Assembly (NCBI RefSeq): GCF_004785685.1
Contig: NZ_SRPF01000001.1
Location: forward strand, 310,001-374,000
Origin: Marinobacter confluentis
GTDB lineage: Bacteria > Pseudomonadota > Gammaproteobacteria > Pseudomonadales > Oleiphilaceae
DNA length: 64,000 nt
Direction: 5' to 3'
Shown: piece by piece, positions 52,117-54,944 of the stretch
Numbering within the stretch: position 1 is the first letter of the stretch
How the letters are laid out: the number at the start of each line of letters is the position of its first letter
Notes under the pieces: model-generated
What the model was told of the DNA's origin: nothing
The model's database searches: none
The model's input: the letters and a program-made list of their open reading frames with translations, nothing else
Position numbers and translations under genes: made by a program

Positions 52117-53601
52117 ATGACTGTACGTACCCGAATCGCACCGTCGCCGACCGGTGATCCCCACGTTGGCACCGCCTTCGTGGCCCTGTTCAATCTGTGC
52201 TTTGCCCGTCAGCACGGCGGCCAGTTCATTCTGCGAATCGAAGATACGGATCAGGCCCGCAGCACCGATGAATCGGAGAAAGACATTCTCGGCGCGCTGC
52301 GCTGGCTTGGCCTGGAGTGGGATGAAGGCCCGGACGTGGGTGGCCCTTACGGCCCTTACCGCCAGTCAGAGCGCAAGGATTCCTACCGCCAGTACGCCGA
52401 AGATCTGGTGACCAAGGGCCATGCCTTTTACTGTTTCCGTACGCCGGAAGAGCTGGACGCGATCCGTGAGGACCGCAAAGCCCAGGGTCTGAACCCGGGG
52501 ATTAAGGGGGATCTGGAGCTTTCGCCGGAAGAGGTGAATCGTCGTCTGGAGGCGGGTGAGCCTCATGTTATCCGGATGAAAGTACCCGAGCACGGCGTCT
52601 GCGAAATTGACGACATGCTGCGGGGCACCATTGAAATTGACTGGTCCCAGGTAGACTGCCAGATACTGCTGAAATCCGACGGCATGCCCACTTATCATCT
52701 GGCCAATGTGGTCGACGACCATGAGATGAAGATCACCCATGTTCTTCGTGGCGAGGAGTGGATCAATTCCGCCCCCAAACACCAGCTACTTTACGAGTAT
52801 TTTGGCTGGGAAATGCCGGTGCTTTGTCATCTGCCGCTGCTGCGCAACCCGGACAAGAGCAAGCTGTCCAAGCGCAAGAATCCCACCAGCATAAACTTCT
52901 ATGAGCGAATGGGCTTTCTGCCGGAAGCAGTAACCAACTATCTGGGTCGAATGGGCTGGTCCATGCCGGATGAGCGTGAAAAGTTCACCCTTGATGAAAT
53001 GATTGCTAATTTCGATATCCAGCGGGTGTCCCTGGGCGGCCCGGTATTCGATGTGGAAAAGCTGCGCTGGCTGAACGGTCAGTGGATCCGCGACGAGCTG
53101 AGCGATGAGCAGTTCATCGAGCGCATGCGCCACTGGTGGTTCAATGAACAGGCCTTGAAGGACCTGGTGCCCCACATCAAGGGGCGTGCCGAGGTATTCA
53201 GCGATGTTGCACCCATGGCGTCCTTCATGTTCTCGGGCATGTTGAATCTGAAGCCGGAGGATTTTGCCCACAACAAGTTGGACGAAGGACAGGTCAGGCG
53301 GGTGTTGCAGTTTACTTTATGGAAACTGGAGGCTCAGCGGCATTGGAGCAAGGACAACATCTTTGCTGATATCAAGACCCTGGCAAAAGCTATGGACCTG
53401 AAGATGGGGGATTTCATGTTTGCCATCTTTGTCGCGATTGCCGGTACACCGAACTCCTGGTCGGTGATGGATTCCATGGCCATGATGGGCCCGGATATGA
53501 CCCGTTCCCGCCTGCGTCATGCACTTGAAGTGATGGGAGGTTTCTCGAAAAAGGAGACCAAGCGGGTGGAAAAAGAGTACGCGGCGCTGCTGACGGAATA
53601 A
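52117..53601 (+). CDS. gltX: Glutamyl-tRNA synthetase
   Basis: 494-residue class I aminoacyl-tRNA synthetase. The HIGH-like signature is [13 protein letters not shown] (residues 9-21), and the KMSKS-like loop is KLSKRKNP (around 250). The anticodon-binding helical C-terminal domain is intact. A -10-like TATAAT at 52042-52047 lies upstream without a good -35. It is followed by tRNA-Ala and tRNA-Glu, the latter being its own substrate. Confidence 0.98.
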
Positions 53602-53667: not shown

Positions 53668-53743
53668 GGGGCCATAGCTCAGCTGGGAGAGCGCAACACT
53701 GGCAGTGTTGAGGTCGGCGGTTCGATCCCGCCTGGCTCCACCA
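53668..53743 (+). tRNA. tRNA-Ala (GGC)
   Basis: 76 bases fold as a complete cloverleaf: acceptor GGGGCCA/TGGCTCC (one G-U pair), D arm GCTC/GAGC, anticodon stem CAACA/TGTTG with loop CTGGCAG (anticodon GGC), and T arm GGCGG/CCGCC with TTCGATC. The discriminator A and an encoded CCA end complete it. Confidence 0.97.
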
Positions 53744-53752
53744 AGTTTTCTA

Positions 53753-53828
53753 GTCCCCTTCGTCTAGTGGCCTAGGACTCCGCCCTTTCACGGCGGCAAC
53801 AGGGGTTCGAACCCCCTAGGGGACGCCA
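53753..53828 (+). tRNA. tRNA-Glu (TTC)
   Basis: 76 bases fold as a complete cloverleaf: acceptor GTCCCCT/AGGGGAC, anticodon stem CCGCC/GGCGG with loop CTTTCAC (anticodon TTC), T arm GGGGTTCGAACCCC, discriminator G and encoded CCA. It lies nine bases after tRNA-Ala, in the same transcript. Confidence 0.97.
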
Positions 53829-53864: not shown

Positions 53865-53892
53865 AAAAAACCGCCTTCGGGCGGTTTTTTTT
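53865..53892 (+). terminator. Rho-independent terminator of the tRNA pair
   Basis: The stem CCGCC/GGCGG (53871-53875 and 53880-53884) with a TTCG tetraloop, extended by an A-run/T-run pair, ends in eight T residues (53885-53892). It can act in either direction. Confidence 0.93.
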
Positions 53893-53893
53893 G

Positions 53894-53948
53894 TTACGGG
53901 GTCTTACGGGGTCTGTCCCAAGGGGTCTGTCCCAAGGGGTCTGTCCCC
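53894..53948. repeat. Short tandem repeats
   Basis: A ten-base unit TTACGGGGTC is repeated twice (53894-53903 and 53904-53913), merging into a fourteen-base unit (A/C)GGGGTCTGTCCC(A/C) repeated three times (53907-53920, 53921-53934, 53935-53948). The third copy is the start of the inverted repeat arm described next. Confidence 0.93.
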
Positions 53949-54039
53949 GAACGGGGACTGACCCCATCCCATGGCCTGACTGGGGTGCGAAATTCATAGT
54001 TGGGTAATGGGGTCAGTCCCCGTTCGGGGACAGACCCCT
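53935..54039. repeat. Perfect 33-bp inverted repeat (REP-like)
   Basis: The arms at 53935-53967 and 54007-54039 are exact reverse complements, separated by 39 bases. Each arm contains its own hairpin CCCCGAACGGGG flanked by GGGGTCTGT and ACTGACCCC. This looks like a REP/BIME-type mobile repeat of the kind spread by Y1 (RAYT) transposases; no transposase is nearby. The right arm encodes the last eight residues and the stop of the minus-strand gene at 54013. Confidence 0.88.
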
Positions 54040-54885
54040 AGTAGCAACAGCCCCCTTACCAACCCCCTCATAAGCTTTCACCATAATGGTATCGTCCGGA
54101 AAGTCCGCTTTCAGCTGATCGGCGATATGCGCGGCAATCAGTTCAACCGTGGTGTCCGTAGCCAGCATATAGACCCGTTTTTCCGGCAGCGTCAGGGAAA
54201 ACTCGCCCTGTTCGGCTTCATATTCGAAACTGACGTAGGCCGTGCCGTCTTCGGCCACCCAGCGGCCGGTGACGTCCTCTTCGGTGCCCACGTAAATGTC
54301 TTCCCAGAGTCTTGCCCAGCGACGTTCCAGGTCCCGGTCACGCTGGCCGTTGCGGTCGATCCGGATGGGGGAGCGGTGGCCGTGGGCGATGCGCTGGCAG
54401 TTGCCCAGGTGCTTTTTCAGCCCGTGAACATAGTGATAGTAGGCACCTTCAATCACCTCTTCCCGCAGCTGAATGTCGATATCGGTGACGTTGCCGGGCA
54501 ACACCGCCCGCAGTTCCTGCTGCAGCAATGTGGAAACAGCGGACGGAACAACCCGGTCAGAGGATAGCCACACCACGGCTTCGTCGGGGGAACGGTGAGT
54601 CAGGGCGGTGCCGTCGGTCAGGACCCAGGAAAACGCCTGGGGGTCGTTTTCGTCCCACTGCAGGCCGCTGTAGCCACGGGGAATGACCAGGCGATGGTCA
54701 ACGCGTTCGTCGATGACACGTTTGATGGTGCGTTTGACGTTGCTGAAATCGAACACCATGCCCTGGTCGTCCAGCTCGCCACCAAGAACAACGTCCACAA
54801 TCCAGCTTTCGCCTACCAGGCCCCTTGATGCATCGAGGTAGGCGAAATCAATCACCGTGAGATTGTCTACGAAAAGGTGGTTCAT
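54013..54885 (-). CDS. 6-pyruvoyl/6-carboxytetrahydropterin synthase-like two-domain protein
   Basis: 290-residue protein with two T-fold halves. The N-terminal half has the QueD/PTPS-like FDFSNVKRTIKRVIDERVDHRLVIP. The C-terminal half has the zinc and catalytic region CQRIAHGHRSPIRI (C163, H168, H170) followed by a variable insert and MLATDTTVELIAAHIAD. This suggests a pterin- or queuosine-related synthase of unproven substrate. The ATG at 54885 (MNHLFVDNLTVIDF) is chosen. The last eight residues (RGLSPNGD) and the TGA are provided by the right arm of the adjoining inverted repeat, so the native C-terminus was probably different. Confidence 0.8.
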   Translation of the reverse strand: MNHLFVDNLTVIDFAYLDASRGLVGESWIVDVVLGGELDDQGMVFDFSNVKRTIKRVIDERVDHRLVIPRGYSGLQWDENDPQAFSWVLTDGTALTHRSPDEAVVWLSSDRVVPSAVSTLLQQELRAVLPGNVTDIDIQLREEVIEGAYYHYVHGLKKHLGNCQRIAHGHRSPIRIDRNGQRDRDLERRWARLWEDIYVGTEEDVTGRWVAEDGTAYVSFEYEAEQGEFSLTLPEKRVYMLATDTTVELIAAHIADQLKADFPDDTIMVKAYEGVGKGAVATRGLSPNGD

Positions 54886-54944
54886 TGAGCAGGTCCACAA
54901 GGGTGGGTTGGAAGATGGGCGGAGTCTAACAAAATTCTGCCAGG

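Follow-up and report, generated by a model that had tools for sequence, protein, structure and literature searches.

A probable REP/TIR-type palindrome doublet supplies the end of a PTPS-type gene in Marinobacter confluentis

Introduction

A two-domain gene of the PTPS/QueD type in Marinobacter confluentis ends within an inverted repeat, and the question raised by this locus is whether the repeat is a mobile element that took over the end of the gene, and by which route. The gene lies in a window of 64,000 nucleotides (the whole stretch of DNA that was analysed; contig NZ_SRPF01000001.1, positions 310,001 to 374,000), to which the coordinates below refer. Stop donation by mobile palindromes is already in print, and the kind of event is known (PMC3733652, PMC2759123). 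GTAG REP termini often donate the stop codon to flanking ORFs, and REPs also lie inside ORFs, as described in parts of PMC3733652. In Erwinia carotovora, an amidase gene is reported to have lost its normal stop by fusion with an RU-1 element at its 3' end (PMC2759123, in part). Within the open-licence literature, neither the family in Marinobacter nor a series of captured ends such as the one below was found, and a term search of the main text of PMC3733652 returned no Marinobacter.

Our reading, which we hold to be highly probable, is that the feature in the window is a mobile palindrome doublet of the REP/TIR type (GGGGWSAS) that captured the end of the PTPS-type gene. It is carried by the structure of the repeat, the replaced gene end, an empty sister, the occurrence of the family in sister species and the use of its stop by other genes. 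The captured end is real and recurs in relatives; it is of an ordinary kind and unusually well documented, and the mechanism of its spread is what we infer.

Structure and setting of the inverted repeat

The repeat search recovered two arms of 33 nt each, 100% complementary and spaced 39 nt apart. They lie between convergent transcription units, the PTPS-type gene on the minus strand and the tRNA side on the plus strand. The features of the locus are listed below.

52117-53601, plus strand: glutamyl-tRNA synthetase-like ORF, named from sequence
53668-53743, plus strand: tRNA-Ala
53753-53828, plus strand: tRNA-Glu, the convergent neighbour
53865-53892, no strand: terminator-like palindrome that separates tRNA-Glu from the repeat and bounds the variable gap on its far side
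53908-53934, plus strand: two tandem 14-mers, GGGGTCTGTCCCAA, outside the left arm, the second reaching the first base of the arm
53935-53967, plus strand: left arm, the same hairpin in opposite orientation
53968-54006, no strand: spacer between the arms
54007-54039, minus strand: right arm; read on the strand of the gene, an A followed by the 30-nt hairpin GGGGTCTGTCCCC-GAAC-GGGGACTGACCCC
54013-54015, minus strand: TGA stop codon inside the hairpin
54016-54036, minus strand: codons of the repeat-encoded tail GLSPNGD
54037-54039, minus strand: AGG codon, R at the native last position, encoded by the repeat edge (the 107 relatives with R directly before the stop use CGN here)
54013-54885, minus strand: two-domain gene of the PTPS/QueD type, giving 290 aa when started at the conserved ATG

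Further partial units precede the tandem 14-mers; the feature thus extends to the left of the arms. Each arm forms its own fold with one mismatch, at -26.0 kcal/mol for the right arm on the gene strand (z -5.2) and -25.2 kcal/mol for the left arm (z -4.4). Both arms can also pair mutually, the whole 113 nt then reaching -82.8 kcal/mol (z -10.7), and in each of these cases 0 of 200 shuffles folded as well. A chance origin was rejected by these z-scores, which lie far beyond chance. Repeat search and folds together bear out the original prediction, made from the letters of the window, of a perfect 33-bp inverted repeat with a hairpin in each arm, and short stable hairpins arranged as an inverted doublet are the arrangement of a REP/TIR-type element.

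By eye, no GT(A/G)G, the classical head of GTAG REPs, stands directly 5' of the palindrome. A GTAG at 54041-54044 is found beyond the right arm (3' of it on the plus strand) and within codons of the gene; the relatives G014 and G017 do not share it (genomes and loci are referred to by G and L numbers). The terminator-like palindrome beyond the repeat was recognised by pattern in the gaps of 113 of the 121 relatives.

The PTPS-type gene

The ORF as listed spans 54013-54900 on the minus strand and opens with a TTG at 54900. The likely start is the ATG at 54885 (MNHLF...), which is conserved in the genus alignment. Fold and Pfam profile both place the product in the PTPS/QueD family: PF01242 (PTPS) matched residues 30-72 with 51 bits against a cut-off of 22.4, and a Foldseek search with the AlphaFold2 model (built with 22 relatives, mean pLDDT 92.8) retrieved PTPS chains, the best at E 7.8e-8 with a query TM of 0.38 for a target of 163 aa against 293. 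The NCBIfam QueD and PTPS models matched below their cut-offs.

The C-terminus reads ...GVGKGAVATRGLSPNGD and a stop, that is, ...GVGKGAVAT-R-GLSPNGD-TGA. As predicted, the outer edge of the right arm at 54039 coincides with a codon boundary of the gene (54039/54040). In the model, the final strand (281-286) stops at the R (model residue 286) and the tail lies beyond it, its last three residues having a pLDDT below 50. The GLSPNGD tail is probably just tolerated, because it is placed beyond the last strand of the model, at an end of low confidence.

Empty and filled gene ends across the genus

Among 124 genomes of the genus, this one included, a PTPS-type protein was found in 121, and all 121 ends were read. 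Outside GGGTC-type repeats stop 112 of them (107 after R, four after RA and one after C), the R codon of the 107 being CGC in 66, CGT in 25, CGG in nine and CGA in seven. Nine ends stop inside GGGTC-type repeats (G000, G014, G017, G018, G035, G103, G113, G075, and G115), with the tails GLSPNGD (two), GLS, VCPRGLS, and V (five); all nine keep the R at the same position, as AGG or CGG. The identical GLSPNGD tail of the PTPS-type protein occurs elsewhere only in G014, itself a carrier of the repeat. The regular expression flagged two further genomes, G095 and G090; by eye, both have no such repeat and end in R with their own stop, and they were counted as native. In G036 (L206), the PTPS-type gene matched as two overlapping pieces and may be frameshifted in the assembly.

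Because 112 ends stop outside such repeats, the R is the native last residue, to which the repeat adds GLSPNGD and the TGA. The right arm had been said to encode the last eight residues (RGLSPNGD) and the TGA: the encoding is exact, but the R is native in position and the extra residues number seven. That the repeat rewrote the C-terminus agrees with the repeat-free relatives, which end at R with their own stop, and the comparison asked for, whether relatives without the repeat encode the same C-terminal residues, found the tail absent from the 112 ends that stop outside such repeats, including those of G007 and G003. These two genomes, from the same clade, end in SR with no tail.

The clearest contrast is offered by the sister pair G007 and G017, which are 3.7% apart over the first 600 nt of the gene. 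G007 is empty; its gene ends ...SR and a stop (TCT CGC TGA), with 86 nt from the stop to the tRNA landmark and 16 nt to the terminator. G017 is filled; its gene ends ...SRGLS and a stop (TCA AGG GGT CTG TCC TAG), it carries the doublet, the distance from stop to tRNA landmark is 246 nt, and the stop falls where two tandem units join. By eye, no target-site duplication of the kind expected of a MITE of a DDE transposon was seen between the empty and the filled end, and the native end was not retained.

Copies of the repeat in this genome, the genus and beyond

Counting the 33-mer in the genome had been named as a check on the original prediction, which a lack of further copies was to refute. 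Taken literally, the count goes against the prediction, since the hairpin was found nowhere else in this genome; the same hairpin is present in 12 of the 124 genus genomes. Within two mismatches, the 30-bp core was found in this genome only at this locus; up to three mismatches, the search returned both arms and three related palindromes, all three at three mismatches. A family of copies of the exact hairpin inside this genome was therefore rejected, and the exact hairpin is a singleton doublet. The pattern GGGGTCWGWCCC matched 43 times on the forward and 44 times on the reverse strand, against 1 and 2 for the reversed control. Among these 87 matches (control, 3), those of the GTCTGTCCC/GTCAGTCCC kind are only six at this locus and one other.

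Across the genus, 56 strict copies of the hairpin are spread over those 12 genomes, this one included (reversed control, 0), with 16 copies in G103, the maximum, 14 in G018 and 10 in G113. A looser pattern found 45 copies in G103 (control, 0), grouped into 19 clusters with 38 sides. In sister genomes the palindrome is thus dispersed as a REP/TIR-type element should be, in many copies lying mainly between genes. The mobile reading survives the singleton status because the hairpin is dispersed in sister species and the related GGGGTCWGWCCC palindrome is dispersed here. REPs usually have more than 100 copies (PMC2817692, in part), and this family has fewer, with the 45 looser copies in G103.

In the species collection, the carriers belong to Marinobacter (M. 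shengliensis, M. fuscus, and others). The contig scan returned 18 stretches, four of them outside Marinobacter (two in Massilia arenosa, one in Pseudoduganella flava and one in an Actinomycetota MAG); in these four, no frame that enters the repeat on the matched strand is longer than 68 codons.

Other genes ending in the repeat

Of 53 distinct copies examined, seven provide the stop codon for an ORF that is 90 codons or longer: the PTPS-type gene in three cases, a TerB-like gene in two, and an AraC-type regulator and FolD in one each. The AraC-type regulator (Pfam HTH_18, 70.8 bits) ends ...KRSRGLSPHGD and a stop. FolD is supported by Pfam (226 bits); the TerB-like gene scores 22.5 bits, under the cut-off of 24.4, and its name is weak. 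In a comparison of 13 genomes, the FolD frame runs into the repeat and stops there in G103 (...LHRGLSPNGD) and G113 (...LHKGQSPNGD), whereas in G018 it has its native end (...LHR), with the repeat 10 nt beyond. The TerB-like end, read in 12 of 13 genomes, lies in the repeat in G103 and G018 (...PLRGLSPNGD), reads ...PPL in five (G113, G115, G035, G141, and G032) and has other endings in five.

Along the 38 cluster sides of G103, the family contains five gene ends: those of FolD, the TerB-like gene, the PTPS-type gene, an AraC-type regulator and a HAD-like gene. The AraC-type and HAD-like names come from sequence. In this count, ORFs of at least 100 codons stand in for genes, and the unit with the PTPS stop was missed by the search pattern. 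The idea that the repeat is always entered in one frame (R-GLSPNGD) was dropped, as stops in G103 follow ...RV, ...RGLSPNGD and ...GSDPKGV. Possible further captured ends, left out of the counts, are FolD of G115 (AGC GTC TGA CCC...) and the TerB-like gene of G070 (GGG GTC TGA).

One repeat thus gives the same tail to unrelated enzymes, and the genus holds a natural series from an empty sister through a repeat beside the stop to a repeat replacing the stop, which illustrates how mobile palindromes rewrite protein ends. REPs near stop codons can lower translation in E. coli. With the natural series and the shared tail in hand, it becomes directly testable what a stop codon inside a stable hairpin costs or does.

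Transposase genes

A search for a Y1 transposase of the RAYT type had been suggested, and such a gene is present: this genome has two Y1_Tnp genes, L008 and L009. The product of L008 (230 aa) matches the NCBIfam REP-associated tyrosine transposase with 84.4 bits against a cut-off of 80, and by Pfam it has Y1_Tnp only, without the C-terminal HTH of subclass 2.1. It is flanked on both sides by double palindromes of the GGGGTCAGACCCC type (GGGGTC-type). These palindromes (GGGGTCAGACCCC ... GGGGTCTGACCCC) are similar, not identical, to the hairpin described here, so that L008 is a candidate for its cognate transposase. The GTCTGTCCC hairpin itself was not seen flanking Y1 transposase genes; in G069 (L110), a single GGGTCAGTCCCC was seen some 1 kb away from the Y1_Tnp match.

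In 13 other genomes searched, Y1_Tnp was found in 12 and a GGGTC-flanked one in 10. A RAYT flanked by related GGGGTCAGACCCC palindromes occurs in this genome and in nine of the 11 other carriers; the carriers G017 and G070 are without a GGGTC-flanked RAYT, and G070 is without any Y1_Tnp match. G007 has a GGGTC-flanked RAYT, yet no strict copy of the hairpin. With 79.1 bits, the RAYT of G113 (L101) narrowly misses the NCBIfam cut-off of 80. From these associations, RAYT/TIRYT-type Y1 (HUH) transposases very probably mobilise the GGGGTC family in trans.

The stop of the RAYT gene itself lies inside the flanking palindrome at L008 2102-2109 (GGG GTC TGA), and likewise at L103 and L106. The second RAYT-like gene (L009 1015-1860, contig C64) has HTH-like matches at its C-terminus and no GGGGTC flanks within 1.5 kb; GGGTCAGGTCTTGC before it and the reverse complement after it form a candidate TIR pair.

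How the gene end may have been captured

On the preferred reading, a doublet of REP/TIR-type palindromes from the dispersed GGGGTC family, spread in trans by such transposases, would have landed between the convergent units and replaced the original end of the PTPS-type gene. Translation would now enter the first hairpin, add GLSPNGD after the native R and stop at the internal TGA. The takeover may have been one transposition event; the data would equally suit an insertion next to the stop with a small deletion after it, or a gene end imported by homologous recombination. The proposal of an insertion near the original C-terminus thus holds as far as the end was rewritten, and a single event remains one of several routes that fit.

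It is a real possibility, somewhat short of an even chance, that the capture took two steps: the repeat would first have inserted close behind the native stop, which was then lost in a small deletion that ended at the base of the hairpin and fused the frame to the repeat. In FolD, the 10 nt between stop and repeat in G018 are missing in the sister G103, where the frame enters the repeat; the PTPS-type gene of G070 ends RA (TAA) directly before AGGGTCTGACCCC, and the TAG after ...PPL in the TerB-like gene of G113 abuts the repeat. Against this, the R codon is exactly at the native last position in nine of nine PTPS carriers, so that random deletions would need selection on the residue, and no intermediate was seen in clade A.

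The distribution of the carriers was examined on a quick tree of 118 PTPS genes. Six of the nine fall in one clade (support 93), and G000, G014, and G017 are scattered in another group of 16. Parsimony needs at least four changes for the repeat state. AU tests rejected the nine carriers as one clade (p 0.0002) and G000+G014+G017 as a clade (p 0.0003), and did not reject G014+G017 together (p 0.41); the groups were chosen by trait, the latter two after the tree had been seen. With the carriers not forming one clade and no fewer than four changes required, either insertions struck this codon repeatedly or the gene end was moved by recombination.

Homologous recombination, which would have spread the repeat and the adjoining gene end between species and affected the same codon without independent insertions, is a tentative explanation. 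The AU tests and the four changes favour it. Between the PTPS genes of G103 (L126) and G113 (L128), moreover, 3 of the first 600 nt differ, against 12 of the last 90 just before the repeat (nine synonymous, three not), as an imported tract would give. Pooled over pairs, the divergence of the last 90 nt relative to the first 600 is 1.22 in 72 repeat-free pairs, 2.42 in one mixed pair and 5.28 in three carrier pairs, although these three share three genomes. Among the rows closest to G014 over its final 150 nt are carriers from the other clade (G115, G113, and G103, 0.83-0.84). For the last windows of G000, however, the nearest rows mix carriers and non-carriers at 0.77-0.80 with no clear donor; some repeat-free pairs also diverge near the end (e.g., G097/G137 and G027/G034), and G014+G017 was not rejected.

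Independent insertions into a preferred target, the gap from the gene end to the tRNA terminator acting as a hot spot for palindromic elements, are unlikely but would account for the four or more changes. By crude patterns, the 113 gaps with a recognisable terminator comprise 30 of the GGGTC type (including the nine carriers), 14 of the AAAACACGCCGTG type, six of the GGGGACGGATTT type and 63 with none of these. No target motif was found, however; the counts cover the PTPS gaps, and FolD and other gaps in the same species likewise hold many repeats. In 14 genomes, the gap after the PTPS gene holds a different conserved palindrome, of the AAAACACGCCGTG ... TTTTGGGAG type (e.g., L017, L021, and L031).

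We regard it as very unlikely that the repeat is drawn to gene ends and that the stop-bearing hairpin with an RGLSPNGD-type tail is a 3' module shared by several genes, acting in translation termination, ribosome stalling or protein turnover; if it were, gain of the module would make species differ in the regulation of these genes, including two of pterin/folate metabolism (PTPS-type and FolD). Most improbable is a bidirectional terminator or RNA-stability element of the PTPS-type gene, kept for function and not mobile, which would suit the high stability of the hairpins and their place where convergent genes end, but the repeat is absent from most of the 121 relatives, has no T-run by eye, has a separate terminator-like palindrome just beyond it and recurs as the same hairpin beside many unrelated genes in sister genomes.

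Relation to known repeats

The doublet resembles the TIRYT repeats. Certain Y1 transposase genes have inverted repeats on either side with a common GGGGWSAS motif (TIRYT/TIRtron; PMC3733652, in part), and the starts GGGGTCAG or GGGGACAG fit this motif by reading; dimers or clusters and a flanked Y1 transposase gene are further likenesses. A hairpin with an internal TGA sets the present repeat apart from TIRYT repeats as described in the parts of PMC3733652 considered. It differs from the stop-donating GTAG REPs of the same source, again as far as those parts go, by the TGA inside the hairpin, the repeat-encoded tail and the lack of a visible GTAG head. Of the TIRYTs, 20 of 26 were assigned to the HTH-bearing subclass 2.1 (PMC6006769, in part), which L008 does not resemble in this respect.

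With REP doublets (BIME, REPIN) and their RAYTs, the locus shares two inverted hairpins, a short spacer, a RAYT in the genome and, in the sections of PMC2817692 and PMC6006769 drawn on, REPs very near the stop codons of RAYTs; the heads of those doublets are tagged with GT(A/G)G, and none was seen in the repeat of the window. RU-1 differs in being a 127-bp MITE-like unit with a longer extension and unrelated sequence (PMC2759123, in part).

Like the Rickettsia palindromic elements (RPE), the palindrome is read in frame as protein; RPEs are about 150 bp long and inserted inside ORFs (PMC10969869, in part), and the internal case in Marinobacter is an MBL-fold-like gene. This gene, named from sequence, reads in frame through copies of the repeat (...GVSPQGDRPR...), an internal insertion found at L071, L083, and L092 on the minus and at L081 and L207 on the plus strand. 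Apparent read-through ORFs at these five loci lie opposite the MBL-fold-like gene and were discarded, and those at L090 and L093 were judged spurious by eye. In some genomes, the MBL-fold-like gene has about 30 or more additional residues beside the repeat.
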